Shown piece after piece: positions 4,800-35,032 of a stretch of 64,000 bases of DNA; within the stretch, counting starts at the first letter, position 1; each line of letters begins with the position of its first letter. This DNA comes from a virus, in IMG/VR virus record IMGVR_UViG_3300003691_000002, positions 1-64,000 of that record; one strand, 5' to 3'. A program made the translations under genes and the position numbers. The notes below the pieces were generated by a model. It saw only the letters and a program-made list of their open reading frames with translations, made no database searches and had not been told where the DNA came from.

Positions 4800-5615
4800 A
4801 TGTTCAACGGAAAATACATATCATTAAAAGAAATATTATGGCAAGTATATAACTTACCATATACAGAAGAATTAAATTATACAGATGCAGCAGAATATGC
4901 TGTAGATGCTATAAGGTTAATAGGAGCTCCTTTAGCTTATATTGACAAGGTAGAAGCTACTTCATTAGTAGAATATAAAGCAGCTTTGCCTGATAATATT
5001 ATTACTATTAAAGGAGTTAAATTATTAAATGCAGGAGGGCAAGATATTGCTCTTAGAAGAGCCACTGATCTTTATCATCCTTCTATTCCTTGTAATGATT
5101 CTGGTCCTTCTATAAATACAGATACTACAGATTTACCCAATAGTCCTTATGATGAATCAAATCAAGGAGTTAACACTTCAGTTGTAGACACAGAAGCAGG
5201 TACTACTGGAGAAAGAATGAGTGAGTATACTTATATTACTAACGGAGGAGTAATACAAAGCTCTGTAAAAGAAGGAAATATAGAAATAGCTTACCAAGGA
5301 CTTGCTTGTGATACTGAAGGATTTCCTTTAATACCTGATAATATACAGGTAAAAGAAGCTATTAGATATTATATTACTTACAGATATTTAGAACCTTTAT
5401 GGGGTGCAGGAAAAGTAACTGATAAATGGTATAATAATGTAGAGCAAAAAAAATCTTTTTATATGGGCGCTGCAAACACTTCTATGCAGTTGCAAGGTAT
5501 AGATCATTTAGAATCTACTATGAACGCAGTAAATAGACTTATTGTAAATGATAAAGCTTATGATAATTTCTATATTGGGGCAGGACAAAGAGAACGTATT
5601 AAAAGGTATCATTAA
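4800..5615 (+). CDS. crAss-like ring/head-tail connector protein 2 (271 aa)
   Basis: The N-terminal helical part ('MFNGKYISLKEILWQVYNLPY... YTDAAEYAVDAIRLIGAPLAYIDKVE') and the strand 'AALPDNIITIKGVKLLNAGGQDIALRRATDLYH' are typical of the ring protein encoded directly before the muzzle/tail-stabilisation gene in crAss-like phages. The middle (about residues 100-140) is a low-complexity Thr/Asn/Asp linker. The C-terminal half ('IPDNIQVKEAIRYYITYRYLEPLWGAGKVTDKWYNNVEQKKSFYMGAANTSMQ') is helical, as in P22 gp4-like connector folds. Its stop codon shares a base with the next ATG. The role is virion assembly at the neck. Confidence 0.68.
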   Translation: MFNGKYISLKEILWQVYNLPYTEELNYTDAAEYAVDAIRLIGAPLAYIDKVEATSLVEYKAALPDNIITIKGVKLLNAGGQDIALRRATDLYHPSIPCNDSGPSINTDTTDLPNSPYDESNQGVNTSVVDTEAGTTGERMSEYTYITNGGVIQSSVKEGNIEIAYQGLACDTEGFPLIPDNIQVKEAIRYYITYRYLEPLWGAGKVTDKWYNNVEQKKSFYMGAANTSMQLQGIDHLESTMNAVNRLIVNDKAYDNFYIGAGQRERIKRYH

Positions 5616-17246: not shown

Positions 17247-20200
17247 TGGAAGAAGAAAATTTATTATTAGGTGATATACAGTCTAGGGGAATGTCAGCTT
17301 CCCCTAATCCATTAATTGCGGATATAGCTGCAAGAAACTCTTTAAGCTATGAATCTGCATTTAACTATAGTGGTATTGTACCTGTTGGTGGAATAGGATT
17401 AGGAGAGTCTAGATATGATAAACCTAATATACCTTTTTCACAGTTATATAATTTAGATGAAATTAGGGCTAGAAGACAGCCTTGGCTTGCTAAATTTGGA
17501 GCTGGTTTTGGTAGAGTAGGAACTAAAGCAGTTTCTGAAATAGCCAAAATGCCTGGTGTATTAGGAGGAATTGTTGGAGGTGCAATAGGGCAAGCAATAG
17601 ATTTAGCCACAGGTGAAGATAATACAGACTTTGTTAAAACAGCTTTTGATAATATTTGGATTAATTCTATAGCTGACGCAGAAGAACATATTAATGAGGA
17701 GGTTTTACCTGTATATGTTAGAAAAGCTGTACAAGATGGAAATCTTTGGGATAAAATTACTTCTATTGATTTCTGGGCAACTGACGGTGCAGATGGTTTA
17801 GGATATATTGTAGCAATGTTAGCTCCAGGACAAGCTATTAGTAAACTTGGATTAGGTTCTAAACTTATGCCTACTAAGGCTTTAACTGCTATGGCTAAGT
17901 CTACTGATGATGCAGCAGCTACTTTAGCATCATTAGGAATAAAACCTTCAAATGCAGATATTGGACTTGCTGCTGTAGCTAATACTATTTTTGAATCTGC
18001 TGCAGAAGCTAAAGGTTCTATGGATTCTTTTGAGCAATCTCCAAAATATCAAGAAGAATTAGAAGAAAGAATAAATAAAAATTATAATGAGATAATTGCT
18101 AATGCGCAGGGCAATCCTGAAATAATACAAAATGCTAAAATTCTTGCACAAGAAAAAGCAGAAAAAGAAATGCAAGAATTAAAATCTGGTATAGGAGCTA
18201 AAGTTTTTAAATCCAATGTGGGTATATTAATAGGTCCTAACATAGCAATGTCTAAAATATTATGGGGAGGAAGAGCTGCTAGAGGAGCTAGAAATCAAAT
18301 AACTAAAGAAGGTGTTGAAAAAGTTGCTAATCCTTCCACTTTAAAAAAGATTAAAAATTGGGGAGATGAATGGGGCAAAGGTGTATTAAGAGAAGGATTT
18401 TGGGAAGAAGGGCTGCAAAGTACTGCAGAAAATTACTTTACAGAAAACCCAGAAAATACTTTAGGAGATTTTTTAACAGATGCTCCTAAAGAGTGGCTTA
18501 AAACATTAGGTACTACAGACGGGCAAGTAGCAGTATTTCTTGGCTCAGTTTATGGTGGTACAATGTCTGCAGCAGCTAATAGTTATAAAGCTAAAAAAGA
18601 TAGGGAAACTTTAAATAGGCTTATAGAAAGAGGAAACAATTCTTTAAATCAATTAGCTTCGATTTTTCAATCTAGTGATGTTTTTGAAACTGTTATAAAT
18701 GAACAAGGAGAAGAAGAAGTAGTTTATGTAAAAAATGAAGAAACAGGGGAGTTAGAAAAGAAAGTAGACCCTGTTAAATTAAGAATGAAATTAGAGGGGG
18801 ATTTAAAATTTGAAGCCCTTTCTGCTATATTTGATGTTGCTAAAGAAACAGGTGATAAAAGACTTTTAGACGCTGTTAAAAACAAAGCTTACACAGAAAT
18901 GGTTATACCTTTTATCTTAGATGATAAATTAGGTGTAGAAACTCTTAGACAAGCTTTAGATGCGCATGGTAAAATTGCAGAAGCAACACAAGGTAACAAT
19001 CTTGATATAAATGAAATTAAATCAGATATTTTAAATAAAGCTACTTATTTAAAAAATCAATATAATCTTTTTCAGGATTTTTCTAGGTCTCTTATAAAGC
19101 TAAATGCTGATAATGTAAAAAACAAAGATTTTGATATTTTCTATGACAAATTGTTAGAGCAATATTTAGTATCTCATTCTGAGTTACAATTTTTAGAAAA
19201 AAGAAAAGAAAAATTAACAGAAACTATTACAGAGCTTGGTAATAATAATAGAAGGTTTCCAGATGCTGCAAATATATTATTGGACCCTAAAAACCAATCT
19301 TTAATTAGAGATGTTTTACAATCAGACCCAAGATTAGAAAAAGCTTATACAGAGTATTTAACGCTTGACCCTTCTATTGAATCTAAAAAAGATGTAATAG
19401 AGGACGTATGGAATCAAGATAAAAGTAATGAAGCGTTTCAAAAATTTGTAAATGATTCTAGAGAGTTAGAAAGAAAATTAGAACAAGCTAAAAAAGTACA
19501 AACTGTTTTAGATGATATTGCTAATTCTTCTAATTTAGAGGAATTAGATAATATCCTTATACCTGAAGGTATAGATAATGAGACAAGAGATCTTATAAAT
19601 GCCACTAAAAAAGAAAGAAAAGAAGAATTAGAAGCAGCAGAAGAAGAGGAGGCACAAAAAGCTAAAGAAGACGCTGACTCTTCTTTAAATGAAAATGAAA
19701 GAGAGAGTTTAGAGAAAGAAGCGTACATTAAAAATCTCAAAGAAAACTTTGCAGAGGGAGATATTATTACTGTACCTGACTGGCATAAAAATGCAGGAGA
19801 TGATGTAACTATTACTAAAATTAATAAAAAATCTATCTCAGTAGAAGATAGTAAAGGCAATAAGTTTTTAATTAAATATGAAGACTACTATGATGCTGCT
19901 GCTTCTAATGATATTCTTACAGTTTATTCCACAGAAGGAAATGTTCTTACTGAAGAAGATAGACAAGTAACTAAAGTAGTAAATGCAAAAGAAGATACTA
20001 GATTAGAGCAGGAATCTTTTGATACTCCTGTAATGATTAGGAATGATGAGCTTGACCAAATTTTTAACTTTATAGACCCTGCAGTAGAAGTTTTTGAAAG
20101 AAACCCTGTAGACAAAAAAGGACATAAAGTTTATTTTGAAATTGCTGGAACTACTACAGAAACAACTTTATCTAAAGAAGAAAAATCTGAGTTAAAAAAA

Positions 20201-23200
20201 TTAAAGGATGAACAAGAAATACTTAGAAGAAAATTAGCTCTAGCTCAAGGAGATTTTTCTAATTTTGAAAAAAACTGGTTTATTTATTTACCTGAAACTC
20301 ACGAAAAATACCCTAATGCTAAGTTAAAAGTAGTAAGAAAAAATAAAAAATCTTTTTCAGTTCAATTTTTATATGGCAAATTAAAAGATACTAAGGGAAA
20401 TATTACTTTTGAAAGTATTACAAAGGGAGTTACCTCTGAGTATATTTCTACATTACAAGAACAATTAAAATCTGCACAAGATAGAATAAATAAATACAGG
20501 CAAACTCCTGTATTAAAAAGAGAGGAATTACCTCCTAATGTTTTAAAGGCATTAGAAATGTGGGAAGCTGCTACTAGTGTAGATGAAAATGGTAAAGTAA
20601 CTATTGACCAAGACACTATTGATGAGGAGTTTTTAATTAACTACTTACCTATTAATGCCAAGTTTTCTAAAAGCTTAATGGCTCCTTTACACACTAAGTC
20701 TGATAAAGCTAGTGCTGTTAAATTTAATGCATTATTTAATGCAAAAACTAAAAGAATTAGAACAACTATAATTAAAGAAATTCTTTCTGGTACTCCTATT
20801 AATGACTTAAATACAGTTATTAAAGGACAAATGAATGGTACTATTAAAGCAGATGAAGGAACTCCTGGTAGAGCTGCTGTTAACTCCGTACAAGACCTTT
20901 ATGAATTTCAAGGAGATATAAGTAATATAAAAGCGGATAGACTATTTATTGCTAATGAAGTAGGTAAATTAGAAAATACTAAAGGAAAAACTATTACTTT
21001 AAATAGACCAGTAGCTCCTGGTGAATTATATGTATTAATTCATACAGCTGCTGGAATGCCTTTTTATTTAAAACTAAATGTAGAAAAATTAGATCAAAAT
21101 ACTGCAGAATTCCTGTATGATCTATATAAAGAAAGATTTAAAAATGTAGCTGCAGGTAAACAAGTAAGGCTTAAAACAATGTCTGAAGAGTTATATAATA
21201 AGTTCTTGACTCAATACTCAGATGTTGTACCTTTACTTGGTAAAGATGAAAAAGATATTACTGTAAAAGATGTAATAGATTTCTTTATATATGACAGGTC
21301 TAGTAATAAAAAATCTAGAACAAGATTTATAAGCCAAGAAATTTTTGTTATTGGTAAAGATGAATTTACAAAAAAAGATTTTGAAAAACCAGAAGAAAAA
21401 GAAAGATTTATAAGTGCTTTAATGGATGTCAAAAGACACCATATAAGATTTAAAAAGAGAAAGAATGCTCCTAAAAAACAAGCTACTTTAGAAAATGTAG
21501 CATACCGTAGGTATATGTTTGGTAATAAAATAATATCTACTAATGCAGTTGTTAATGAGCCTACTTTCCAAGGTAAGACCACTATTTATTTAGATACTTT
21601 TTCTTTACGTGTTAAAAATAAACTATCTGATTACAATCCTGGAAAAGCTAAAGTTTATAAAAAACAATTAAGAGGTACTAATAAACAACTAAGAAAATAT
21701 TTTCCAAAGCTTGCAGAAAGATATGTATCTCTTACTACTAATGAGCAAGGTTATACTGTAAAGAATGAATCAGGTTTTTATCAAAGAGCTTCTAGATTAA
21801 AAAATCTTACTCCTTACCAGAAAAAAGATGCAACATTTTTTAAAGCTGTAAAGAGAGGTACTATTATAGATAACATGTTTAGGCAATTCTTTGCTTACCC
21901 TATGAATAGATTTCATTTTATAGAAGAAGGAAAAAGAACTGTAGATAATGTTAATGGGGCTTATAATAAAAAATATGCAGACAATAAAGAAATAGAAGGA
22001 ACAGATATAGAAATGACTACTGAGTTCTTTGAAAATTTATTTGATGTTTTTCAAAGCTATGCAGATTATTTTTATAAAAACAATTATGTAATATATTCTA
22101 ACGCTCCATCTGCTGTAGGAATTTTTGGTGACAAAGAAGATACAGATACTTATTTTGGAGGTACTATTGATTTACTTGCCTATAAAGTAGATACTGGAGA
22201 GTATCATATGTTTGATTTAAAAACTACTTTTAAAGATAGAAGTTTTTTCTATAATAATCCTAAAGAAGATAAATATAACTATAAAAATGGAGATCAAATA
22301 CAATTAAATGCTTATAGAGAATTATATTATCAATTTGCTGGAATCCCAGTATCTAGAATGTTTGTTATTCCTTTGACCACTAGAGCCTCACAAGGTAACA
22401 AATATGAAAATATTGGTGAAGATAAAAATCAAAAAATATTAGATGTAGAAGAATTTGATCTTAAAAAATATTTTGAAGAAAAATGGCTTCCTGCAATAAA
22501 AGCTAAAAAGAAAAAGAATACATCAGGAAAACCAACTCTTAATTATTCTAGTATATTTGGAGATAATCCTAATACTGCTAGCAGCAATGTTACAATAACC
22601 TCTACTGTTAGAGAGGCTTTCATTGGTTGGGTAAAAGAAGGCCCAGATGTGATTGAAAAATATAGTATAGGTATACCTAAAGGTTCAGGAACAAGTGCTG
22701 CTATAGATGTTTATTATATTCATCCTGCAGGTATGTTAGCACAAAGACAAGACCCAACTAAAAGGGATAATTATGTATTGGTAACCAACCCTTCAGTAAT
22801 TAAAAAAGTTATAACAACATATTTTGAACTAGCAGAAAAGCAGGCAAAAATGGTAGCAGTACAAAGTAAAAAACTGCCTGCTTTACAAGAAAAGAAAGCA
22901 GAATTACAAGCTGCTTTAACAGGTGTTACAGACCCAGCTAAAATTAAAGCTATAAAAGCTAACATTGCAGCTAAATATAAAGGAAAAGTACCAGGGTCTA
23001 TGGACATTTTAACAATTCAAAGTTTTAAAAAGTTGTATGGGGAACTTTTAGAAATAAAAGATGAGGTATTAGAAAATTTTAACAACTCTATTTCAGGAGC
23101 AGTTACAACTACTATTCCTTCTGTTAACCCTAATACAGATACCCCTACAATTCCTACAACTCCTGTACCCCCTACTCCACCAGGAGAAAATAATACTCCT

Positions 23201-23455
23201 GTACCTCCGTCAGGGAATGGAGTTCAACAAGACACTGTTATTAATTTAAGTAATATGTCAGAAGAAGAAAAAACTGATTTGTTTGATAATTTAATGAAGA
23301 GTACTTATGCTACACCTGTACTATTAAAGGCTTTTCAAAAAGAAGCAGCTAAATTATCAAATCCAGAAAAGGGAGAATTAATTAATACATTTATATCTTT
23401 ACTTAAAGATAAAGGTATAACAGAGGAAGAAATATCTAAAAAATGCGGATTATAA
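17246..23455 (+). CDS. Giant cargo protein with PD-(D/E)XK nuclease domain (2069 aa)
   Basis: Hydrophobic Gly/Ala segments lie near the N-terminus ('GVLGGIVGGAIGQAIDLATG', 'GLGYIVAMLAPGQAISKLG'), a long charged coiled-coil region spans about residues 430-860, and beta-rich modules follow. Near residues 1590-1710 is a RecB/Cas4-like nuclease core: 'GGTIDLLAY' (D1642), 'YHMFDLKTT' (D1657, K1659) and 'DQIQLNAYRELYYQ' (Q-x3-Y). These are the D...(D/E)xK and QxxxY features of PD-(D/E)XK nucleases. A Pro/Thr linker (about 1955-1990) precedes a helical C-terminus. Its place directly before the virion RNA polymerase marks it as an injected cargo protein. The nuclease could attack host DNA early or process phage ends; that is inference. 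Confidence 0.72.
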   Translation: MEEENLLLGDIQSRGMSASPNPLIADIAARNSLSYESAFNYSGIVPVGGIGLGESRYDKPNIPFSQLYNLDEIRARRQPWLAKFGAGFGRVGTKAVSEIAKMPGVLGGIVGGAIGQAIDLATGEDNTDFVKTAFDNIWINSIADAEEHINEEVLPVYVRKAVQDGNLWDKITSIDFWATDGADGLGYIVAMLAPGQAISKLGLGSKLMPTKALTAMAKSTDDAAATLASLGIKPSNADIGLAAVANTIFESAAEAKGSMDSFEQSPKYQEELEERINKNYNEIIANAQGNPEIIQNAKILAQEKAEKEMQELKSGIGAKVFKSNVGILIGPNIAMSKILWGGRAARGARNQITKEGVEKVANPSTLKKIKNWGDEWGKGVLREGFWEEGLQSTAENYFTENPENTLGDFLTDAPKEWLKTLGTTDGQVAVFLGSVYGGTMSAAANSYKAKKDRETLNRLIERGNNSLNQLASIFQSSDVFETVINEQGEEEVVYVKNEETGELEKKVDPVKLRMKLEGDLKFEALSAIFDVAKETGDKRLLDAVKNKAYTEMVIPFILDDKLGVETLRQALDAHGKIAEATQGNNLDINEIKSDILNKATYLKNQYNLFQDFSRSLIKLNADNVKNKDFDIFYDKLLEQYLVSHSELQFLEKRKEKLTETITELGNNNRRFPDAANILLDPKNQSLIRDVLQSDPRLEKAYTEYLTLDPSIESKKDVIEDVWNQDKSNEAFQKFVNDSRELERKLEQAKKVQTVLDDIANSSNLEELDNILIPEGIDNETRDLINATKKERKEELEAAEEEEAQKAKEDADSSLNENERESLEKEAYIKNLKENFAEGDIITVPDWHKNAGDDVTITKINKKSISVEDSKGNKFLIKYEDYYDAAASNDILTVYSTEGNVLTEEDRQVTKVVNAKEDTRLEQESFDTPVMIRNDELDQIFNFIDPAVEVFERNPVDKKGHKVYFEIAGTTTETTLSKEEKSELKKLKDEQEILRRKLALAQGDFSNFEKNWFIYLPETHEKYPNAKLKVVRKNKKSFSVQFLYGKLKDTKGNITFESITKGVTSEYISTLQEQLKSAQDRINKYRQTPVLKREELPPNVLKALEMWEAATSVDENGKVTIDQDTIDEEFLINYLPINAKFSKSLMAPLHTKSDKASAVKFNALFNAKTKRIRTTIIKEILSGTPINDLNTVIKGQMNGTIKADEGTPGRAAVNSVQDLYEFQGDISNIKADRLFIANEVGKLENTKGKTITLNRPVAPGELYVLIHTAAGMPFYLKLNVEKLDQNTAEFLYDLYKERFKNVAAGKQVRLKTMSEELYNKFLTQYSDVVPLLGKDEKDITVKDVIDFFIYDRSSNKKSRTRFISQEIFVIGKDEFTKKDFEKPEEKERFISALMDVKRHHIRFKKRKNAPKKQATLENVAYRRYMFGNKIISTNAVVNEPTFQGKTTIYLDTFSLRVKNKLSDYNPGKAKVYKKQLRGTNKQLRKYFPKLAERYVSLTTNEQGYTVKNESGFYQRASRLKNLTPYQKKDATFFKAVKRGTIIDNMFRQFFAYPMNRFHFIEEGKRTVDNVNGAYNKKYADNKEIEGTDIEMTTEFFENLFDVFQSYADYFYKNNYVIYSNAPSAVGIFGDKEDTDTYFGGTIDLLAYKVDTGEYHMFDLKTTFKDRSFFYNNPKEDKYNYKNGDQIQLNAYRELYYQFAGIPVSRMFVIPLTTRASQGNKYENIGEDKNQKILDVEEFDLKKYFEEKWLPAIKAKKKKNTSGKPTLNYSSIFGDNPNTASSNVTITSTVREAFIGWVKEGPDVIEKYSIGIPKGSGTSAAIDVYYIHPAGMLAQRQDPTKRDNYVLVTNPSVIKKVITTYFELAEKQAKMVAVQSKKLPALQEKKAELQAALTGVTDPAKIKAIKANIAAKYKGKVPGSMDILTIQSFKKLYGELLEIKDEVLENFNNSISGAVTTTIPSVNPNTDTPTIPTTPVPPTPPGENNTPVPPSGNGVQQDTVINLSNMSEEEKTDLFDNLMKSTYATPVLLKAFQKEAAKLSNPEKGELINTFISLLKDKGITEEEISKKCGL

Positions 23456-23456
23456 T

Positions 23457-26400
23457 ATGGTTTGTAGTAGAAGTGTAAAATATTTAGGGAAAGACTCAAG
23501 CGTAAAATCTTTGTTATTTGATAAGTTATATCAAATAACAAAAGATGAAAAATACGCAGAGGATTTATATAACCAATTTAATACTGATTATTTCAAAAGA
23601 GAAGTTTTCGGAGATTTTACTAGTATAAATAGTGAAACTGAAGATTTATTTTTAAATAGAGTAGATGAAAATAATGAACCTCTTCTTATTTATAATTCAG
23701 ATATAGATAAATATTATTATATAGATTTATACGGACAAAAAGTTTATGAGCCTCAGCAGCAAGGATTGGAAATGTTCTTTACTAAAGAAGATTTAGATAT
23801 GCTTGTAAATACAATGGCTCTTAAATATTTTCAAACTTTAAATTATGATTTTGAAAATAATAATGCTGTTATTAAATTAAATAATATTTCTATTCAAGAT
23901 ATAGTAGAGCAATTTATAGATACTAAAATAAAAGAATTTCAACAGTCTGGTGATTTTATTAAAATGGCTTTAGCTCCTTCTTTAGAAGGTTCTAAACAAT
24001 ATATGAATGAATGGACTAAAAAGATAAGACAATTCTTTTTATCTAAAAAACTTATTATAAATGATTCAGTAGATTTTGAAACTGCTGAAGATTATTTAGA
24101 GCAAATAGAAGAGCAAGGTAAAGAAAATATTATAAGACCTGATGCTTGGACTACTGATAGAAAAAATACAGTTGCAAACAATATTAAATTATTTTTATCT
24201 TTATATAAAACATCTGAATTAAATAAATTTGGAGAATATAATTTTGTAAATTTTGAAGATGTTTTTACAAACTTAAATCAGATACTTTCTAATGTAGTAG
24301 CTGACTTAGATGAAAATGGTAATTTAGAAGATTTATATGAAGTCTTCTTAGAAGAAATAGGTAAATATGCTAAATATAAACCTTTTCTTCAAACTCTTTA
24401 TGATGATTTAAAAAGAGTTACTAATGAGGATTTTAAAAATAGATTTGTAAATACTTTCTTTTTAGCTCGTAAAAAATTCTTAGGAACTATATATGGGTAT
24501 GATGATAATGGTAATTTAAATGTAACTGTACAAGATTTTTCAGAAGTTACATCTAGAAAAAATGTAGTATTGTCTAAATGGAAAGACAATATGGAATTAA
24601 TGGATGTCACTGGCACTACTTTAGCCCAAGCAATGTCAGTGTTAAATCCAGCCTTAATAGCTTATAGTAAAGAGCCTAATGAGAATACTATTGAAAAGTT
24701 AAAAGATTCTTTTATGGAGGTACTTGCTTCTGTAGGAGTTACTATAACTAGGCAAAATTTAGACTTTTTATTAGAGACTCACAAAAAATTTGATGATCCA
24801 GGAGAAGCTCTTGCTTTTATGGCTACTCAAGCAGTAAGGGCTGTAAAAGAAATTGGTAAAACAAGTCCTGGAGCAGAAGTGCTTAGAAATTCAGCTTTTG
24901 TAAATTTAGCTTCTGGAGAAGCTTTCTTTTTTGATAAAGGCTCAGATGCTTCTTTCTTTTCTGTTGGTAAAAGTAGATGGTTATATTCTTTATATTCCCA
25001 CCTAGAGAAAATATTTATAGAATGGAAAAATAATCCTGAAGCATTAAGGTCTCATTTTAATAGTTCAGCCTGGACTAAAGGTAGTTTTTATGCTAAAAAA
25101 TTATTAGCTCTTGATTTAGAAGATGATGTAACAGATGAAGAAAGATTAGAGTTAATGCAACAAAGACTTGAAGATTTAGATGTCTTTGTATTTAACTCTT
25201 TTCAAACAGATAGAGCAGCTAAAGAGGCAGTAGATAATAAAAGTATTGAGTATATAGATAGGATAACTGACTATATCAATAAAATGCTTAACCATCATAA
25301 GAATGGTAAAACTTTTCATAACACTGCTTTAGCAGGAGATAAAAATAACCAATATCAAATAGTTTGGGGTGATTGGGTTCATCAAGAAACTAATGCTGAA
25401 AAAGGTACAGACGGTAAATTAATAATTAACGAGGATGTTAAAGATATTTTCTGGAATTATTTTAAAGCAGAATATTATCGTATAGAAGAAGCACATCAAA
25501 GACTAGAAAATCAGGAAGAGCCTATTGTTAATTATGATCAAAAAGCCCTAGAGATGAGCTTATTTCCATCTCTTTCACCTGTTCAAAATGGTAAAAATGT
25601 AGCCAAGCCAAAAGGTCTTAGTAAGCCTATTTATTATAAAGGGCGTCCTATATATAAAGACATAGAATCTAGAAAAGCAGATATTATGCCTTTAATCGTA
25701 GAGGCATTACATACTAAAATAAAAGAAACTTATAAAATATTAGAAGACGCAGGAGTTTTATATTATACATATCAAGGATTTAGAAAGCTTAGAAATGTAG
25801 ATTTTGATATTTTAAGAAGTTATATTCCTACAGATAATTTACAAAGACCTGTTAGACCTCTTTCTGAAAAAGCAAAAGATACAAGAAGAGCTAATATTGA
25901 AAATGGTTTATTTAGTTTAATATCAGATGTTACTGTAAACAGTTTAATTTCTCAAATAGAGTACTCTATGCTTATAGCTGGGGATGTAGCTTTTTACAAA
26001 AACTTTAATGATTACAAAAAAAGAATACAGCAAACATATACAGACGGACAGTATTTAAATAGATTGTCCTCAGATGAAGTTTATTTTAATATTGCCGTAA
26101 TTAATAGTGTAAAAGTTCCAGCTGTTAATTTAGACCTTATTAAAAAACATATAGATGATCCTTCAATTATAGACGCATATTCTAATGTAAATAATGCTGA
26201 TGGACAGGCTTGGATTACTCCTCAAAGGTGGAAATTTATTATGGATAAATTAGGTAAATCAGGACCTATTTTAGATTCTACCTATAAAAAAATGTTTGAA
26301 AGAGAACCTGTATTTACTTTAGAAGAATTAAAATTACTAGCACAGCCTTTAAAGGGTGTATATTTTAGTAATAGAAATGGGCATCCTATATATTTAAAGT

Positions 26401-29400
26401 ATTCTCAAGCTGTTATATTGCCTAATCTTATGCGCAATACTCCTATAGAAAAGTTGTATAAGAAAATGGTAGAAGATGAAAATGGCAATGAATTGCCTTT
26501 TAATGAACAAACTCACGAGCTTGTTACTTTGGATGGTATTAAAGTAGGCGCAATAGCTCCTACAACAGTACATAAAGCAGATGGCTCTATAGCAGAGGAT
26601 ATTCAACTAAATCAAATGCAGCTTGAAAATTATTATTGGAAGCTGCAACAAGACCTTCCCACAAAAGGAATTAAACCTAGGGATTTAGGTAGCCAAATAC
26701 AAAAAAATGTATTTCAAGGAATTGCTTTCTTTCCTGTGGAAGAAAGGTTTGATCTTGGTGGGAAAGAGCTTGATAAAAATGAAATGATTAAACATCTACA
26801 TAATATATTTGGCGTAATGTCAAATAGATCGATGTTAGATTTAGTACAAAGTTTGGGAATTAATTCTAAAGGGGAGATTAAAAATGTAGATGCTCTTTAT
26901 AGAAATATTATTCAACAACTAAGTAAAAGAGATACCCCTAATCAAGTAATGATTGAAGCATTACAATATGGAGTTTCTCCTTTTGGTATACCTGGAAGTT
27001 ATGAACTATTTCAAAATGTCTTTAGTAAGATATGGAATGATAACACTATAAAAATTAAAACAAATGGTGCAGGGTATATTCAAATGTCTGATTTTGGACT
27101 TAGTTATGATGAGGCTAAAAGGAAAAAAGGAATAAGATTTACTCCTTGGTTTGATAAAGAGGCTGGAAAACTTTCACCCCCTGTAATTGGGATTAATCCT
27201 GTTACAGGAAAAGAAGTGATTAAGCCTGCTGGCATATTTCTATCTGGTTCTTTTATTGCAAAACATATACCTGATTACAGAAAATTTACAGATGAACAAC
27301 TTTTTGGTAAATATGATGCAGAAACTGGAGAATTATTAGAACGAGGCAAAATAGATGAAAGGATATTAAAGAATATTGTGCACTATCGTATCCCTAATCA
27401 AGGGTTTTCTTCTAATGACCCTGTTACTGTAATGGGTATACTCCCAGATGAGATAGGAGATACTGTAGTTGTTTATACAGGTATTACTACTAAAACAGGT
27501 TCTGACTTTGATATTGATAAAGGATATTTAATGATGCCTGCTTATAAAGCAGATTATCCTGAAGGAATAAAAGTAGAAGTTAGAAAATATATAGAATATC
27601 AAAACTGGACTTATGAGGATGTTATAAATGAATTATATAATTTACAAGTATTACCTAAAAATAATAAAAAATTAAATTATAATATTTTAATTGATTTTAT
27701 TATCAATGACCCTACTTATGAACACTACGATGAATTTAGAAGTGTTTTAGAAATTCAAAAATTACAAAGAAAAACAGCTAAAAAATTAATTTATATTGAA
27801 CCTGATCACAATGCTCCACTGGAAACACAAACTATGGAGCAATTACAAAATCATTTATTAGAAGCTTATATATCAGTTTTTACAAATAAAAACAACTATA
27901 AGTTGTTAATGAATCCTATTGATTCTTCTGTTATTGAAAATGATATTAAATCATTTTTAGATGTACCAGAAACTTCTGATCTTTCTGGCTTCTCTGGTAT
28001 AGAAGATTTGGAATTGAAAAATAAATTAATGACAGGAAAAGCAGGATTAGGACAAGCTGTTAACTATACTGTTGATTATGGTAGGGGCTCTATGGCTAAT
28101 TTATCTATGTTAGATGCCACTTTCCCTATGGGAAGAGATACATTAGATAGGCAAAGTAGTTTAGAATTAACTGATGAAGATTTAAAATTCTATGTAAAAG
28201 AGTTTAATTCTAAGATGCCTAAAGAATTACATATAACTTATGAATTTGCACAGGAAAATCTAAGAGATATAGAGATTGCAACTTCTTTTATGACTATCAT
28301 TAACGGGTTTGTAGATGTTGCTAAAGATGATTATTTAGTACAAGGTAATTGGAATTTAGCTACTAATGCTGTAGGTCTTAGTATGCTTAGAGCAGGAACA
28401 CATCCTTTTATTATTACCAGGTTTTTATATCAACCTATAGTAAGAGAATATGTTAATTTCTTAGAAAGAGTTAATTCTCAAACTTTAAAAAGAGAAGGTA
28501 GTAGAATTAAATTATTTAAGCTAGAAAAAATACTAGACGAATTTAAAGAAAACAGTAATCTTACTTTAAATGGTAATACTATAAATGTATATCAGTTAAT
28601 GAAAAGGCATTTAGGGTATTCTGATGTACAATTTTTAAATAAAAAACGTATTGAAAAAAGTGAAGAAAGTATTGAAAATACTTATGAGAGATTATATGAA
28701 GAATTGCACGAAGCCTTTGATTTAGGTGCAGAAGATCAATATGAAGAAATACAAGAGATAGCTGAAAAAGCTAGAGACCTTTTATATTCTTATTTTTTAA
28801 GTCCTCAAACATCAGGTGTAAGTTACTTTTCATTAAAACATTTAACTAATCAAATTAAAAACCCTACTCTAGCAGGGCAAAAAGGTTACTTAGAATATTT
28901 TGAAGACACAAGAAAATTAGGTAGGAATTTAAATAAAGTAGTACAGGCAAATAAAACAGACGTAGAGGGTAAAGGTAAAAATGCTACGAGTAATTTAATT
29001 AAATTAAATATTATAAATAAGTTATTAACTTATATTGAAGAAGAAGAAGTTGCTGGTTATGAAACAATGCTTTTTTATGATGGTAAAATGACATCTGTTG
29101 CACACGCTATTAATAATAGTCTTAGTGAGCCTTTAAAAATAATGTTAAATAACCCTACATTATTTCCTACAGTTAATAGCTCTGCTATTAAAACTTTTAA
29201 TTATATTTCAAGAAGACTTAGTAAATTTAAATTAGACAATCAAGATTTAGGAGATACTCTTGAAAGAAATTATTATTCTTATTTAATGTCTGGTTTTGGT
29301 CCTTTTCAATTAAATACAGAGCAAAGGAAACAACTGTTGCTTAATATGCCTGATAGGGTAAGAGCTATGCAAATTTTATACCCTGAAAATGCTTTGTTAG

Positions 29401-30776
29401 AAGAGCTAGTGTTGATTACAAGTGAAGATACTGGAATTACTTATATAAATTCTACTATTAGTAAAAAAACTCCTGATAGAATAAAAGAAATGGTTTCTGC
29501 ATGGGAAGATCTTTTAGAAGAAGAGGCATTTTTTGCAGAAGATTTAATTAAATATTCTTATATACATTCAGGATTTAACAGAAGGATAAATTCATTTCAT
29601 GAGTATATCCCTCCAAAATGGTTTAATTTAAATAGATTAAATTCTTATCTTTACCAGTTAGATAAAGATCTTCCTGATGTTGTTGATATAAATTTTGTAG
29701 ATCAGTTCTTTAGAAATAATATAAATATTTCTTTTGGAAGTGTAACATTATGGCCTGGTAACTCTACTTATGACTATACTATAGACAAATCAGGAAAATT
29801 AGTTAGGTTAGGCCCTGTAATTGAAGACAAATCAGAAGCTAAATACTTAGCAAAAAGAACTATACGTTCTAGCAATCCTAATATTCCTGATAGAGATGTT
29901 TATTATAAATTAATAGGTATTAAAAGTACTAAAGCGGGGCTTAGAGGTATTTATGTTATTACTTCTCCTTTAGGTCTTATAGATGGTAGAAATAGATTTA
30001 CAGAATATAATATATTAAATAAAAACAATGTTGCTTATAATTTTTCTATGTTTGATGCAATTAATGAGCAGAGTTTTAAAAAGATTGATTTAATGAGTAT
30101 TGTTAATACTATTGAAAATAATTCAAAAGATATTACAAATTTAGATAAAGATGTATTCTTAGACACTCCTGTAGTTGATGAAGAATTTATGGCTGGTGGG
30201 TTTAGAACAGAAGAGTTACAAAGTAGTGATATAGAAAATGAGCAGCCTCCTACAAGAGTAGAGGTTAATAAAATTATATCTGGAGGACAAACTGGGATAG
30301 ATAGATTAGGATTAGAAATAGGACAAGAGCTGGGGATATTAACAGGAGGAACTGCTGCTCCAGGTTTTGTTACTGAGGAAGGTAAAGATGATTCTTTAGC
30401 TGATTTTGGTGTTGAAGAAATATCAGAAGATTTACAGCAAGGTAAAAAAGGCAGACAATTTTATTTACCTAGAACAGAGCAAAATGTCATTAATTCTGAT
30501 GGTACTGTATATTTTAGTGAAAATAAAAGTTCAGCTGGACTTAGAGCAACTAAAAATTTTGCAGATGGTTATGATAAACCTTTTATTTTAAATCCTACAG
30601 CAACAGAATTAAGAGAATGGATAGACAAAAATAATATACAAGTAATAAATGTTGCTGGTAATAGAAGCAGTAAAATGTCAGAGGAGTTTGTAGAAATAGT
30701 AAGAGAAACTATGATAGAAGCATTAACTCCTCAAGAGCTTTCTACAAAAGAGGGTGATAACTTTGATTTTTGTTAA
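23457..30776 (+). CDS. crAss-like virion DNA-dependent RNA polymerase with C-terminal SLOG-type domain (2439 aa)
   Basis: The catalytic loop 'TKTGSDFDIDKGY' carries D1350, D1352 and D1354. It is preceded by 'RIPNQGFSSNDPVTVMGILPDE' and 'GDTVVVYTGI', the second double-psi beta-barrel pattern of the single-chain RNA polymerase shown for the crAss-like phage phi14:2, which is related to cellular two-barrel polymerases. The enzyme is injected with the genome and transcribes early genes. Residues about 2270-2430 are an extra domain: 'KIISGGQTGIDRLGLEIGQE', 'GGTAAPGFVTEEG', 'RTEQNVINSDGTV' and 'INVAGNRSSK'. This order is typical of the Rossmann-like cpYpsA/'molybdenum carrier' family (PF12694) of the SLOG superfamily, which bind nucleotide-type ligands. 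Such a fusion is not standard for the polymerase. The gene starts 1 nt after the previous stop. Confidence 0.88.
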   Translation: MVCSRSVKYLGKDSSVKSLLFDKLYQITKDEKYAEDLYNQFNTDYFKREVFGDFTSINSETEDLFLNRVDENNEPLLIYNSDIDKYYYIDLYGQKVYEPQQQGLEMFFTKEDLDMLVNTMALKYFQTLNYDFENNNAVIKLNNISIQDIVEQFIDTKIKEFQQSGDFIKMALAPSLEGSKQYMNEWTKKIRQFFLSKKLIINDSVDFETAEDYLEQIEEQGKENIIRPDAWTTDRKNTVANNIKLFLSLYKTSELNKFGEYNFVNFEDVFTNLNQILSNVVADLDENGNLEDLYEVFLEEIGKYAKYKPFLQTLYDDLKRVTNEDFKNRFVNTFFLARKKFLGTIYGYDDNGNLNVTVQDFSEVTSRKNVVLSKWKDNMELMDVTGTTLAQAMSVLNPALIAYSKEPNENTIEKLKDSFMEVLASVGVTITRQNLDFLLETHKKFDDPGEALAFMATQAVRAVKEIGKTSPGAEVLRNSAFVNLASGEAFFFDKGSDASFFSVGKSRWLYSLYSHLEKIFIEWKNNPEALRSHFNSSAWTKGSFYAKKLLALDLEDDVTDEERLELMQQRLEDLDVFVFNSFQTDRAAKEAVDNKSIEYIDRITDYINKMLNHHKNGKTFHNTALAGDKNNQYQIVWGDWVHQETNAEKGTDGKLIINEDVKDIFWNYFKAEYYRIEEAHQRLENQEEPIVNYDQKALEMSLFPSLSPVQNGKNVAKPKGLSKPIYYKGRPIYKDIESRKADIMPLIVEALHTKIKETYKILEDAGVLYYTYQGFRKLRNVDFDILRSYIPTDNLQRPVRPLSEKAKDTRRANIENGLFSLISDVTVNSLISQIEYSMLIAGDVAFYKNFNDYKKRIQQTYTDGQYLNRLSSDEVYFNIAVINSVKVPAVNLDLIKKHIDDPSIIDAYSNVNNADGQAWITPQRWKFIMDKLGKSGPILDSTYKKMFEREPVFTLEELKLLAQPLKGVYFSNRNGHPIYLKYSQAVILPNLMRNTPIEKLYKKMVEDENGNELPFNEQTHELVTLDGIKVGAIAPTTVHKADGSIAEDIQLNQMQLENYYWKLQQDLPTKGIKPRDLGSQIQKNVFQGIAFFPVEERFDLGGKELDKNEMIKHLHNIFGVMSNRSMLDLVQSLGINSKGEIKNVDALYRNIIQQLSKRDTPNQVMIEALQYGVSPFGIPGSYELFQNVFSKIWNDNTIKIKTNGAGYIQMSDFGLSYDEAKRKKGIRFTPWFDKEAGKLSPPVIGINPVTGKEVIKPAGIFLSGSFIAKHIPDYRKFTDEQLFGKYDAETGELLERGKIDERILKNIVHYRIPNQGFSSNDPVTVMGILPDEIGDTVVVYTGITTKTGSDFDIDKGYLMMPAYKADYPEGIKVEVRKYIEYQNWTYEDVINELYNLQVLPKNNKKLNYNILIDFIINDPTYEHYDEFRSVLEIQKLQRKTAKKLIYIEPDHNAPLETQTMEQLQNHLLEAYISVFTNKNNYKLLMNPIDSSVIENDIKSFLDVPETSDLSGFSGIEDLELKNKLMTGKAGLGQAVNYTVDYGRGSMANLSMLDATFPMGRDTLDRQSSLELTDEDLKFYVKEFNSKMPKELHITYEFAQENLRDIEIATSFMTIINGFVDVAKDDYLVQGNWNLATNAVGLSMLRAGTHPFIITRFLYQPIVREYVNFLERVNSQTLKREGSRIKLFKLEKILDEFKENSNLTLNGNTINVYQLMKRHLGYSDVQFLNKKRIEKSEESIENTYERLYEELHEAFDLGAEDQYEEIQEIAEKARDLLYSYFLSPQTSGVSYFSLKHLTNQIKNPTLAGQKGYLEYFEDTRKLGRNLNKVVQANKTDVEGKGKNATSNLIKLNIINKLLTYIEEEEVAGYETMLFYDGKMTSVAHAINNSLSEPLKIMLNNPTLFPTVNSSAIKTFNYISRRLSKFKLDNQDLGDTLERNYYSYLMSGFGPFQLNTEQRKQLLLNMPDRVRAMQILYPENALLEELVLITSEDTGITYINSTISKKTPDRIKEMVSAWEDLLEEEAFFAEDLIKYSYIHSGFNRRINSFHEYIPPKWFNLNRLNSYLYQLDKDLPDVVDINFVDQFFRNNINISFGSVTLWPGNSTYDYTIDKSGKLVRLGPVIEDKSEAKYLAKRTIRSSNPNIPDRDVYYKLIGIKSTKAGLRGIYVITSPLGLIDGRNRFTEYNILNKNNVAYNFSMFDAINEQSFKKIDLMSIVNTIENNSKDITNLDKDVFLDTPVVDEEFMAGGFRTEELQSSDIENEQPPTRVEVNKIISGGQTGIDRLGLEIGQELGILTGGTAAPGFVTEEGKDDSLADFGVEEISEDLQQGKKGRQFYLPRTEQNVINSDGTVYFSENKSSAGLRATKNFADGYDKPFILNPTATELREWIDKNNIQVINVAGNRSSKMSEEFVEIVRETMIEALTPQELSTKEGDNFDFC

Positions 30777-30778
30777 TT

Positions 30779-33700
30779 ATGAAGTGTGCAGTACAATTTA
30801 AAACAAAAGAGTTTTTACAAGACAATAATTTAATTGACTCTAATAATAATGTATTAAACTTAGAGGAATTTAAAAAAGCAGCAAGAACTCTTGATAATTT
30901 AGCTTTTTCTAAGTATTCAGTAGATACCTTAGACAATAGTTTATTTTCATTAAGGAATGAGGCTGATGGGATAAAGGTAGAGTATAATGAAAATATGTTT
31001 AATATTTTGCAAAATGCAGAAGCGGAATATTATACAGAATCTTTTCAATCTTTACTTGAAAAATATAAGCAAAAAGTTAACTCGTTACGTGTTAATAATA
31101 ACTATGTTGAAGGTGATTTAGTAAGCGCTTTAGAGGATATAGAATTTACAGAAGTAACTGCAAGTACTACTTTATTTAATACGGAAAGACCTTCTAATGC
31201 TAATGAGGCTATAAAAAGAATTTTAGAAGAAGATTTAGATGGGGAAGTTAGGGAACTTTTAGAGCAAATAGTAAGGAAATTTCCTGAGCTTAAAACTAAA
31301 ATTCAATATGTTAGTGCTAAAGCTTTACTTGCTAAAACAAATGAGCCTGCTAATGTGATGGTCTATGACAGAATAAATAATGTTATATACGTTAGCCCTG
31401 AACTAATTAAAGAAAGAGGTTACTCTGCTAGTTACATAAGTAACACATTTGTACATGAGGTAATGCACTCTGTTACTCTAAAGGCTTTATTAGACCCTAC
31501 AACCATAGAGCAAGAGCTTTTCTCAGAGCAAGTGGCACTGGAGTATACCAGACTAAAAGAAAAGGCGTCAGAAGAGCTTAAAAACAGTAAAGGATTTGCC
31601 AATAAAGAGGAGTTTGTAGCAGAAATGTTCTCTAATCCTGATTTTAGACAGGAAGTGAATAGATTAGACAAGAATTTTTTCGATATGCTTATTAACTTAA
31701 TAAGACGCATATTTGGATTCAAAAAAAATAATGTTTATAATAGGTTAATTAAATCAGGAGTAAGAGGATTTTCTCAAGAAAATATTAATAATGAAAATGC
31801 TCCAGTTTATTATCTTAAAACAGATGAAAATTTTAAAGTAGATAATACTACTTTTGATAAAAGACTTGCTAATACTATAAAGAAAATCAATAATTCTATT
31901 GATCAAAATATAAAACAAATTAAAGGTAAATTAGAATATCGTAAAGAAACTAATTATAATACAGAAGTATTAGATGAAATACTTTTAACACTTCAAGCAA
32001 TAGAAAATGATATTCAAACTACTATTCCTTTAGAGCAAATTAAAGCAATTAATGATTTTGTAAAATTAATTCAAAGATCTTTAAATACTTTAAATGCAGG
32101 ACTTGCAAGAAGAGACCCTGAAAATTTAGAATACACTCGTAATCTTATTCAAAATTATACTGATATTATTTCTTATTATGAGGTTATAGAAGAAATTAAA
32201 GATATTGTTGTTGATTTAGAAACTTCTCGTCCAGAAAATATTTCCGAAGAAGATATAAAGAAGATAGCTGGAGCTACTAATTATACTTTAGGATTATTTT
32301 ATAATGTACAAGGACAGCTGCATTCGTTAATTAAAGAACATATGTTTGATACTTTAAATGATATTAAATATCATAAAGAAGTAGAGAATAAACATTATCA
32401 AAGATTAAAACAAGAACATAAAGATGCTAATCTTATAGGAGATAGGGAACAGTGGATTATACAAATGATGTCTACTCGTGATAAAGAAAGAATAGATGAA
32501 GATGTTAAAATAGCTACTGAAGAATTAATTGCTAATCCTGTATTTGATATTAGTTCTTTTACTCTTAAATTTGTTTCTAGTGTTAATGTAGGTTCTAAAT
32601 TTGTTCAAATATTAGAACATATGTTAAATGAAATATACACAGAAAGAAATAGTGAAAGAGAAAAAGCAGATCAAGAATTTCAAGATATTTTTACAGAAGC
32701 AGTTCAAACTAAAGGAACAAATAATATTAAAAAACTTTATAGTAATCTATATGAACAAACTGCTGATGGAACTTATTATTTAAAAGGAGAATATTCTGTT
32801 AAATTTTTAGATGAGGTAATAGGTAAAATCAATACTGTTAGAGAAAAATATGATGAGCAAATTGAAGAACTTCAATTAACTTACTTAGGTACAGACCCTG
32901 ATAGTGATTTTTATCAAGCTCAAAATGATAAGGTAAGAGCTTTAGTTGAAAAAAGAAATACAGAAATAAAAGCTATTGAAGATGCTAATTATGATTATGG
33001 CGCTGAAAATGAAAAAATAATTAAAGATAAATGGAAAAATGATTTATCTTCTTTATCTGAAATAGATAAAAAACTTTTAAGTTTCTTTACTAAATCTTCA
33101 GAAGATATTCGTAAGCTTTCATATTCTGCTCCTATAATGATGAGCAATATTAAATATTATGGGAATGGAAAATTTTACACTTTACCTAAAATTTCTAAAT
33201 CTGATACAGAAAGATTAATTGTAGATAAAAATGCAGTAGGTTATGTAAAAGATAAATTTGCAGATAGAAATGTAAGAGTTGATGACGTAGGGTATGTAGA
33301 AGAAATGTCTACAGTTGCAGGTAAAAAGATTTTACAGAAAAAATTGTGGTATAGAGACCCTGTTGGAGTATTTGATTCTAAAAATCAATCTTTAGATTTA
33401 ATGACGATATTCCGTTTAGATTATATAAACGCTCTTAATTATAATATAAGACATCAACATGAAGATAAATTAAATTATTTATTAGAAATAGCTTCTGCAA
33501 AAGAAAAGTTTTATAAAAAGAAAGGAAATTTATTAGTAGTCAATCCTAAATTAGAGCAAGCAAAAGTAATTGATGGTGAACAATCTAATACTGCTGCTTT
33601 AATGAAACATATGATGGAAACTAGATTTTATGATGTAATGGCTAAAACAGGTACTACTTTTTTAGGAATGGAAGCGCATAAAATAGTCGATATGCTTAAT

Positions 33701-35032
33701 AGTACATCTGCACTACTTACTTTGTCTTTAAATTTTGCTTCAGGAACTGCTAACGTAATAAATGCTAATGGGCAATTATTTATAGAAAGTTTTGCAAAGG
33801 GTTATCATATAACAGCAAAAGACATAGCTAAAGCTAATGCTTTATATGGTAATAATTTACCTGAAATATTGAAAGATACTACAAGACCTGTAAATAGGTC
33901 TTTAGTTAATCAGATTCATGAATACTTTGATACTCAAGGATTAAGAAATATGTCTAATGTTAATTTTATTATAACAGACATGCTTAAACTTGGTATGAAT
34001 AAAGAAGCTTTAAGAGTATTTCAAGAGTCTGGAGAACATTGGATTCAATCTACTGTAGCTTTAAGTATTTTAAATAATATTAAAGTTTTAAATGAGAATA
34101 GTCAATTTATTGATAAAGATGGTAAAGTAGTAAAATCTAAAGACAAAGCAGCATCTGTTTTAGATATGATGTCTGTAGATAAAACTACTGGTGCTTTACA
34201 AATAAGTGATAAATTTACTTATACTACTCATTCTAAATTAACTAAATGGAATGAAGGAGGTAAAGAAAATGTAACTAGTTTAATCCATAAAAAATTAGAC
34301 GATATAATTGGTAACTACAGACAGACTCATCAGCCAGAAGTAATGAAACATTGGCTAGGAAAACTTGTATTATTATATCGCAAGTTTTTAGTACCAATGG
34401 CTATTTATAGAGGTAAAGGATTAAATACTGTAGGAATAAGAAAAGAAAACTTACAAGAAAAAGATAGACCTTTTAATTATGCCTTACAAGAATATGATGA
34501 AGGTTATTATACTACATTTTTTAGATATGTTTTAGATTCAATTAAAAGAAGAAAATTCTATTTACTTTCTAAAGGGGAAGTTTGGAAAAATCTTACTGAT
34601 TTTGAAAAACATAACATAAAAAAGTTTGTAGTAGAAACAGTTATGATATATGGTATGCTTCCTTTACTTGTAGAGTTTGCTGCAGCTTCTGCTAAAGCAG
34701 ATACTTCTCAAGATGATGAAGAATACTTATTCTTTTTAATATATCAAATTCGTAGATTAAGAACAGAATTAGCACAATACAGAAGTTATAATGAAGCTTT
34801 TAAAATGTTAAGATCCCCTATTCCTTCTGCACGTTTGTTTGAAACTACTTTAGATATATTTACTACATCACTTAATCCTACTAAATGGGGAGAAGTATAT
34901 GAAAATGGACATAATAAAGGTAAAAATAAAATTATTACTAAAACTATGAAACAAATTCCAGTAGCTAAAGAATTCTATAGAACTTATAAAGATTTATTTG
35001 AATTTCAAAATAGTTATTTTGGTAATAGATAA
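30779..35032 (+). CDS. Giant cargo protein with zincin metallopeptidase domain (1417 aa)
   Basis: ATG 30779 is preferred over a TTG 9 nt upstream that overlaps the previous stop. A gluzincin-type site lies at H226-E-V-M-H230 ('NTFVHEVMHSVT'). The likely third ligand is in 'NKEEFVAEMFSNPDF' about 45 residues later, a spacing and motif typical of phage-borne zincin domains. Long helical, Lys/Glu-rich segments follow (residues 340-800). A hydrophobic region 'STSALLTLSLNFASGTANVI' lies near residue 975 and another 'ETVMIYGMLPLLVEFAAASAKA' near 1290, possible membrane contacts. It is the last gene of the + strand unit and is followed by a strong terminator. It would be co-injected with the RNA polymerase; targets of the protease are unknown. 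Confidence 0.72.
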   Translation: MKCAVQFKTKEFLQDNNLIDSNNNVLNLEEFKKAARTLDNLAFSKYSVDTLDNSLFSLRNEADGIKVEYNENMFNILQNAEAEYYTESFQSLLEKYKQKVNSLRVNNNYVEGDLVSALEDIEFTEVTASTTLFNTERPSNANEAIKRILEEDLDGEVRELLEQIVRKFPELKTKIQYVSAKALLAKTNEPANVMVYDRINNVIYVSPELIKERGYSASYISNTFVHEVMHSVTLKALLDPTTIEQELFSEQVALEYTRLKEKASEELKNSKGFANKEEFVAEMFSNPDFRQEVNRLDKNFFDMLINLIRRIFGFKKNNVYNRLIKSGVRGFSQENINNENAPVYYLKTDENFKVDNTTFDKRLANTIKKINNSIDQNIKQIKGKLEYRKETNYNTEVLDEILLTLQAIENDIQTTIPLEQIKAINDFVKLIQRSLNTLNAGLARRDPENLEYTRNLIQNYTDIISYYEVIEEIKDIVVDLETSRPENISEEDIKKIAGATNYTLGLFYNVQGQLHSLIKEHMFDTLNDIKYHKEVENKHYQRLKQEHKDANLIGDREQWIIQMMSTRDKERIDEDVKIATEELIANPVFDISSFTLKFVSSVNVGSKFVQILEHMLNEIYTERNSEREKADQEFQDIFTEAVQTKGTNNIKKLYSNLYEQTADGTYYLKGEYSVKFLDEVIGKINTVREKYDEQIEELQLTYLGTDPDSDFYQAQNDKVRALVEKRNTEIKAIEDANYDYGAENEKIIKDKWKNDLSSLSEIDKKLLSFFTKSSEDIRKLSYSAPIMMSNIKYYGNGKFYTLPKISKSDTERLIVDKNAVGYVKDKFADRNVRVDDVGYVEEMSTVAGKKILQKKLWYRDPVGVFDSKNQSLDLMTIFRLDYINALNYNIRHQHEDKLNYLLEIASAKEKFYKKKGNLLVVNPKLEQAKVIDGEQSNTAALMKHMMETRFYDVMAKTGTTFLGMEAHKIVDMLNSTSALLTLSLNFASGTANVINANGQLFIESFAKGYHITAKDIAKANALYGNNLPEILKDTTRPVNRSLVNQIHEYFDTQGLRNMSNVNFIITDMLKLGMNKEALRVFQESGEHWIQSTVALSILNNIKVLNENSQFIDKDGKVVKSKDKAASVLDMMSVDKTTGALQISDKFTYTTHSKLTKWNEGGKENVTSLIHKKLDDIIGNYRQTHQPEVMKHWLGKLVLLYRKFLVPMAIYRGKGLNTVGIRKENLQEKDRPFNYALQEYDEGYYTTFFRYVLDSIKRRKFYLLSKGEVWKNLTDFEKHNIKKFVVETVMIYGMLPLLVEFAAASAKADTSQDDEEYLFFLIYQIRRLRTELAQYRSYNEAFKMLRSPIPSARLFETTLDIFTTSLNPTKWGEVYENGHNKGKNKIITKTMKQIPVAKEFYRTYKDLFEFQNSYFGNR

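Follow-up and report, generated by a model that had tools for sequence, protein, structure and literature searches.

The question raised by this locus is why a virion RNA polymerase (RNAP) of a crAss-like phage carries, beyond its conserved core, a domain of the SLOG superfamily. crAss-like phages are the dominant human gut viruses and are widespread outside the gut too. The window, the whole 64,000-nucleotide stretch that was analyzed, is part of an 88,690-base IMG/VR phage record and contains the following features.

17246..23455, plus strand: upstream giant cargo protein, homologue of phi14:2 gp67 (BLASTP to gp67, E 5e-22).
23457..30776, plus strand: crAss-like virion DNA-dependent RNA polymerase of 2439 aa, homologue of phi14:2 gp66 (PDB 6vr4, E 2e-168).
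29727..30776, plus strand: RNAP tail beyond the conserved core, a variable accessory-domain slot closed by the terminal cysteine (core/tail limit by HMM; comparison with 155 polymerases).
30159..30272, plus strand: probable flexible acidic linker TPVVDEEFMAGGFRTEELQSSDIENEQPPTRVEV from core to domain (read from the sequence and the gp66 alignment; gp66 ends here).
30273..30680, plus strand: cpYpsA (SLOG superfamily) domain, aa 2273–2408, cysteine-free (Pfam PF12694, E 1.6e-23; AlphaFold).
30771..30773, plus strand: codon of the terminal Cys2439 of the RNAP (a cysteine lies within the last five residues in 128 of 140 RNAP ORFs).
30779..35032, plus strand: downstream giant cargo protein, homologue of phi14:2 gp65 (BLASTP to gp65, E 5e-65).

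The polymerase is encoded by one ORF of 2439 residues whose frame is unbroken throughout. Its assignment to the gp66 type follows from sequence homology along its length (32% identity to phi14:2 gp66 in the alignment), from the DxDxD active site, present as DFDID at nt 27504 within the motif TGSDFDIDK (aa 1350), and from its position between homologues of gp67 and gp65, the latter with an HExxH motif at aa 226. The characterized phi14:2 gp66 (PDB 6vr4) has the same DFDID site and the same flanking genes but stops where the extra domain begins in the window and lacks any accessory domain. Proteomics annotation of phi14:2 indicates that the gp66-type RNAP of relatives is packaged in the virion, and crAss-like virion RNAP cargo is ejected, so that it must cross the tail partly unfolded and then refold inside the cell (PMC10172136).

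The first-pass annotation had reported a SLOG-superfamily domain fused to this polymerase, and the assignment was borne out by profile and structure. The Pfam PF12694 (cpYpsA) score was 83.5 bits (curated cut-off, 26.2), and the match covered profile positions 1–131 of 145. The four ordered motifs read earlier in the last ~170 residues were all located as described: SGGQTGIDR at aa 2275 (nt 30279), GGTAAPGF at aa 2297 (nt 30345), RTEQNV at aa 2339 (nt 30471), and NVAGNR at aa 2398 (nt 30648). The domain does lie in the C-terminal part of the protein, but not at its very end, since ~30 residues and a conserved terminal cysteine follow it. The GxD/E family signature of the predicted nucleotide site is present as G2280-I-D2282, within SGGQTG-I-D; in YpsA, this motif (G53, E55) has been linked to ligand binding (PMC6459960). 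An alignment of 18 diverse copies contained 16 invariant columns, the G and D of the GxD motif among them. Structure prediction, proposed earlier as a check, returned a confident Rossmann-like SLOG fold (AlphaFold pLDDT 94.1, pTM 0.90). PDB 3imk, which matches the domain in sequence at E 8e-14, was also matched by Foldseek with a TM score of 0.83, and the best four structural matches by VIA were 3imk (cpYpsA, Z 22.9), the Moco-binding protein 6y01 (Z 9.7), YpsA 2nx2 (Z 7.3), and the defense protein ShosA 8zva (Z 7.0), values below 8 being weak if taken alone. The window domain thus resembles 3imk over nearly the full PF12694 profile and in fold; the two differ in that 3imk is a stand-alone cellular protein annotated as a putative molybdenum carrier, whereas the window domain belongs to a phage polymerase of the injected type and contains no cysteine. 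Maribacter phages Molly and Colly, which infect Bacteroidota hosts, encode a cpYpsA domain 41% identical to that of the window, but as a separate small gene and not fused to a virion protein.

Other phages were then searched with the domain only, in metagenomic contigs; the best 80 matches of each scan formed the sample, and domain counts came from iterated local profiles. Among the 78 distinct phage copies classified, 41 were stand-alone genes, 4 lay in mid-sized proteins, and 21 lay in giant proteins in which no RNAP was detected; a further 9 shared a polypeptide with a crAss-like RNAP core, and 3 were in a giant protein directly adjoining the RNAP. The linear form was found C-terminal to the RNAP core in the window and in at least six further contigs (L021, L133/L201, L197, L207, L216, and L231), as the comparison with other crAss-like polymerases suggested by the first-pass annotation had called for. 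Because the frame is open and the fusion recurs in these contigs, a fusion created by sequencing error is excluded. The domain was also found N-terminal to the core (L198 and L203), in permuted or split form (L009, L105, and L189, the last also cited as N-terminal to the core), and in the neighboring giant protein instead of the RNAP (L022, L071, L090, and L204). It therefore need not sit on the polymerase. In a tree of 159 domains, the copies from RNAP blocks clustered, requiring 5 changes compared with 11.7 after shuffling. The copy closest to the window domain, among the matches listed, belongs to another RNAP (L197, 63% identity), and the best cellular match among those listed came from Larkinella (Bacteroidota, 48%).

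To describe the tail independently of this domain, RNAPs were gathered by their catalytic region with the tail ignored, again from the best 80 matches of each scan, giving 154 distinct ORFs whose 3′ end was closed and, with the window, 155 polymerases. Their tails ranged from fewer than 100 to more than 1600 residues. Across scattered lineages, the slot held cpYpsA, DprA-like SLOG, NADAR, DUF7831, helicase, or AlkB domains, or nothing, and some other RNAPs of the set carried up to four accessory domains. Pfam applied to the 88 tails of at least 200 residues identified DUF7831 (10), SF1 helicase (10), cpYpsA (5), NADAR (3), AlkB-type oxygenase (1), and ART-PolyVal (1); PHROGs added Dda-like helicase (10), phrog_2072 (9), and DprA-like SLOG (5) on the same tails. 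With local profiles, cpYpsA, DprA-like SLOG, or NADAR was present in 17 of 155 tails, an earlier count of 36 of 155 having been reduced because it included uncertain families; NADAR-B matches Pfam weakly (E 0.0003–0.007). DprA-like matches were also obtained within RNAP cores of the gut lineage, but they resemble iteration drift and were left uncounted. Three labels were also withdrawn: a "Macro-like" reading of DUF7831 (AlphaFold pLDDT 74, no structural match above Z 3.4), DUF4326 for the HFGNPF domain (Pfam E 0.23 only, hence "DUF4326-like"), and "SLOGx" for the VSIGGNRG domain, which lacked Pfam support. T, P, S, and Q abound in the linkers flanking the cassettes. Of the 5 cpYpsA tails, 4 carried a second domain of the SLOG, NADAR, DUF7831, DUF4326-like, or phrog_2072 type, compared with 31 of 150 others (p 0.009), a comparison confounded by tail length and in which several of the families have no assigned function.

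On the RNAP tree (FastTree, long branches), the number of separate changes equals the number of occurrences for cpYpsA (5), NADAR (3+6), and DUF4326-like domains (9), and each phrog_2072 occurrence is likewise a separate change. The sisters of the window RNAP have a tail with nothing recognized (L038) and a tail with DUF7831 (L048). Where cores share 20–31% identity, the domains share 50–84%, a contrast that may partly reflect small domains evolving slowly and RNAPs fast: cpYpsA is 53–57% identical between RNAPs whose cores share 28–29%, NADAR-B of L015 and L054 is 84% identical with cores at 20%, and NADAR(-A) of L016 and L116 is 64% identical with cores at 31%. Different rates of evolution could by themselves produce such a contrast; closely related pairs, however, display the exchange directly. 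Between L115 and L116, identity is 100% along a stretch of 13,693 bases and 99.98% in the 6.4 kb past the tail, save for a NADAR cassette that occupies 480 bases in L116; L115 has 15 bases at that site. L155 (which shares its contig with L016) matches L152 at 88% identity before the tail and at 94% after it, and between these conserved flanks one has NADAR and the other a DUF4326-like domain. The NADAR-B cassette of L149 is absent from L157, with 83–84% identity on either side. The stretch that separates the polymerase core from the final residues is a swap site, and the single fusion noted at first is one instance of it. Relatives have different domains at this position, so the polymerase appears to have a second role, as an exchangeable carrier of tools that act early against the host. 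The slot is not confined to NAD signaling, since several cassettes (helicase, AlkB, zincin, PD-(D/E)XK, and DUF7831) have no relation to NAD.

To our knowledge, no phage cpYpsA domain has been assigned a ligand, an activity, or a phenotype. On balance, and by a narrow preference, we regard the window domain not as a regulator of the polymerase but as an injected accessory tool with host nucleotides as its target, probably derivatives of NAD/ADP-ribose. A folded cpYpsA/SLOG module would ride into the host within the injected virion RNAP, as one of many interchangeable cassettes that linkers place after the polymerase core and before the terminal cysteine. In the cytoplasm, it would bind, and possibly cleave, a nucleotide of the host; a derivative of NAD+/ADP-ribose from a defense system is the likeliest candidate, and protection could be in place ahead of any phage gene expression. 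The cargo reading is preferred because the domain is absent from near relatives, replaced, relocated, or placed on a neighboring protein, and because phage SLOG, NADAR, and Macro domains have been argued to act on soluble ADP-ribose signals of host defense (PMC9503650). That the domain acts independently of transcription seems likely; that its ligand is a defense signal of the NAD/ADP-ribose type is plausible at somewhat less than even chances. From knowledge of the family (PMC6459960 and PMC9503650), we infer that it may bind or destroy a host signal nucleotide, as the first-pass annotation had proposed. A domain slot on an injected RNAP would offer a testable answer to the encounter of crAss-like phages with host defenses in the first minutes of infection: the content of the slot should match the defenses of the phage's hosts, and the slot supplies a list of candidate counter-defense domains, some in natural pairs with and without the cassette.

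The first-pass annotation had also raised the tuning of early transcription. The SLOG domain would then be an allosteric sensor that reads host NAD/ADP-ribose or another nucleotide and adjusts early transcription by the RNAP to which it is fused, a reading to which the covalent fusion lends itself and for which Iyer et al. 2022 (PMC9503650) provide a precedent, SLOG fused to nucleic-acid enzymes having been proposed there as a sensor switch. We consider it unlikely. Regulation by the domain sits poorly with nearest sisters that lack it (L038) or have DUF7831 in its place (L048), with a phi14:2 gp66 that has none, and with a tether that is probably a flexible linker. The domain also occurs N-terminal to the core (L198 and L203) or on a separate neighbor (L022, L071, and L204), and the slot holds unrelated domains, which makes transcriptional tuning the weaker alternative.

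A role in phage housekeeping (NAD salvage, nucleotide metabolism, or cofactor binding), with fusion to the RNAP serving only for co-delivery, is given the same low probability. YpsA-family genes do adjoin NAD salvage genes (PMC6459960), the second structural match of the domain is the Moco-binding 6y01, and cellular homologues are widespread, mainly in bacteria. However, the repeated gain and loss even among close relatives is more typical of an arms race than of core metabolism, and the domain co-occurs with NADAR and other conflict-type domains of phages. Much less probable still is a near-neutral hitchhiker, a module acquired by recombination at a tolerant C-terminal site and without important function; the slot does tolerate many unrelated inserts, and also their absence, but dN/dS between pairs of related RNAP-block copies is 0.12–0.24, which indicates purifying selection that has kept the domain functional, and the invariant columns with the GxD motif and the intact predicted fold point the same way.

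The general idea of an injected, multidomain polymerase is established. Polyvalent proteins (Iyer et al. 2017, PMC5512222) are large, multidomain, and packaged in virions, and in them an RNAP is joined to predicted early effectors; the window case falls under this concept, with RNAP and cpYpsA as distinct domains of one polypeptide and packaging taken from the literature. The case described there is the single-subunit N4 RNAP with ART and metallopeptidase domains, whereas the group described here has a two-barrel crAss-like RNAP with SLOG, NADAR, and other domains, and exchange of cassettes is directly evident in it; PMC5512222 makes no use of the words SLOG, YpsA, or crAss. The viral SLOG network of Iyer et al. 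2022 (PMC9503650) concerns the same superfamily, predicted to act on ADP-ribose derivatives of host immunity; there, viral SLOG domains mostly stand alone and are fused sporadically to HTH, HNH, exonuclease, SF1 helicase, and guanylate kinase, and no RNAP fusion was found in the available part of the paper. Thoeris ThsA (SIR2-SLOG) and the anti-Thoeris proteins (Tad sponges and RyDEP) may have a ligand class in common with the window domain, namely cADPR isomers, but they belong to different families. ThsA-type proteins join SIR2 or a macro/TM effector to SLOG; only cpYpsA and RNAP were found on the window polypeptide, which has no SIR2. A literature search found no description of SLOG or NADAR fused to crAss-like RNAPs, and PMC10770324 mentions only "large proteins of unknown functions" as fused to crAss-like vRNAPs. 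Polyvalent injected proteins, including the N4-type RNAP-ART fusion (PMC5512222), are thus already known, and what is new is the swap pattern around the tail domain of crAss-like RNAPs.

The three giant cargo proteins are nearly cysteine-free, save at the ends that adjoin one another. The window RNAP has two cysteines in 2439 residues, Cys3 and Cys2439; the upstream gp67-type protein has a single one at position 2067 of 2069, and the downstream gp65-type protein a single one at position 3 of 1417 residues. The pattern is the same in phi14:2 (gp67, C1797 of 1797; gp66, C3 and C2179 of 2180; gp65, C3). No cysteine lies between the termini in 91 of 140 RNAP ORFs, where 0.4% would be expected from composition. 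The C-terminal cysteine of the RNAP and the N-terminal cysteine of the downstream protein co-occur in 124 of 128 pairs, and the upstream C-terminal and RNAP N-terminal cysteines agree in 45 of 50 (p 0.001). An N-terminal cysteine is present in 40 of 41 RNAPs encoded alone and missing from 33 of 39 ORFs that place a long upstream part ahead of the fused RNAP, and terminal cysteines are rare at the outer ends (upstream protein N terminus, 1 of 26; downstream protein C terminus, 2 of 110). Because gene fusion abolishes the junction cysteines, the pattern suggests head-to-tail coupling and is what coupling through the termini would look like.

The domain follows the same rule. Cysteine-free cpYpsA copies make up 12 of 12 from RNAP blocks and 21 of 22 from other giant proteins, compared with 7 of 45 stand-alone phage copies and 36 of 80 cellular copies, which supports joint delivery with the giant protein. 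Delivery at DNA entry, assumed at first, accordingly gains from this shared cysteine-free make-up and from the known virion location of gp66-type RNAPs. The least probable of the alternatives, a separate small protein made from an internal start and acting like a stand-alone phage cpYpsA, can point to an in-frame ATG within the linker (such as ATG 30189) and to the existence of stand-alone phage genes (Maribacter phages; 41 of 78 loci sampled), but has very little probability given the continuous frame and a cysteine-free composition that the RNAP-block copies share with giant proteins and that stand-alone copies mostly lack.

Disulfides join other parts of the crAss001 virion (PMC10172136). 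We tentatively consider, as a possibility held with less confidence than the ligand class above, that the gp67-, gp66-, and gp65-type giants are delivered as a train, coupled by terminal cysteines, probably as disulfides that would come apart under the reducing conditions of the cytoplasm, and have otherwise been stripped of cysteine. Just before its coupling cysteine, the RNAP tail would serve as a cargo bay, with domains (here SLOG) exchanged by recombination in the linkers and delivering nucleotide-signal and other effectors before phage gene expression. If the cysteine pattern reflects covalent coupling, it bears on the ordered ejection of very large proteins through a phage tail. Internal cysteines do occur in 22 of 140 RNAP ORFs, and these exceptions appear to belong mostly to the crAss001-like part of the tree.

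Two pairs of compared phage contigs (L-numbers) carry natural variants of the exchangeable domain, or cassette, in the tail of the crAss-like virion RNA polymerase (RNAP).

L115 12428-13900; L116 12428-14365: RNAP tail without (L115) versus with (L116) the NADAR cassette
L155, about 5107-5532 (shares its contig with L016); L152, about 13076-13429: NADAR versus DUF4326-like site

Contig comparison revealed that the 13.7 kb upstream of the RNAP tail is the same in L115 and L116, and that the 6.4 kb downstream is 99.98% identical; in the tail itself they differ by one in-frame NADAR cassette, making them a natural with/without pair. In the closely related RNAPs of L155 and L152, one possesses NADAR and the other a DUF4326-like domain, with the swapped domains located between conserved T/P/S/Q-rich linkers.

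Other RNAP tails contain an AlkB-type oxygenase (L069), ART-PolyVal (L126), or a Dda-like SF1 helicase (L006, L008, and L046). DUF7831 is among the commonest tail domains (L004, L048, L051, L086, L093, L133, L136, L161, and L192); its AlphaFold model was moderate, and a search with this model for a structural relative found none. In L158, L182, L183, L190, L131, and L143, translation with table 11 splits the RNAP genes into several short ORFs, a pattern that the recoded stops or introns known from crAss-like phages would produce.

The cpYpsA domain also occurs within giant phage proteins of 2,000-4,600 aa in which RNAP was not detected (L025, L026, L027, L031, L206, L227, and others), where it is nearly always cysteine-free. 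These proteins are further candidates for injected multidomain proteins.

Cysteine is nearly absent from the three giant cargo proteins of the window, save at their mutually adjoining termini.

17246-23455, + strand: upstream protein, C2067 of 2069
23457-30776, + strand: RNAP, C3 and C2439
30779-35032, + strand: downstream (gp65-like) protein, C3

The layout in phi14:2 (L003, 3440-19643) matches, and single-ORF fusions of the upstream protein and RNAP usually lack the junction cysteine. These sequence patterns suggest head-to-tail coupling of the three proteins.

Two further features were observed in the window.

31454, + strand: HExxH zincin-like motif (aa 226, gp65-like protein)
44286-47805, - strand: adjacent amidoligase-like and glutamine amidotransferase-like genes

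Zincin-like domains are also present in some RNAP tails (L163, L167, L092, and L109), and the motif and domains could have a role in processing or early infection. The amidoligase-like and glutamine amidotransferase-like neighbors are possibly a peptide-modifying pair.
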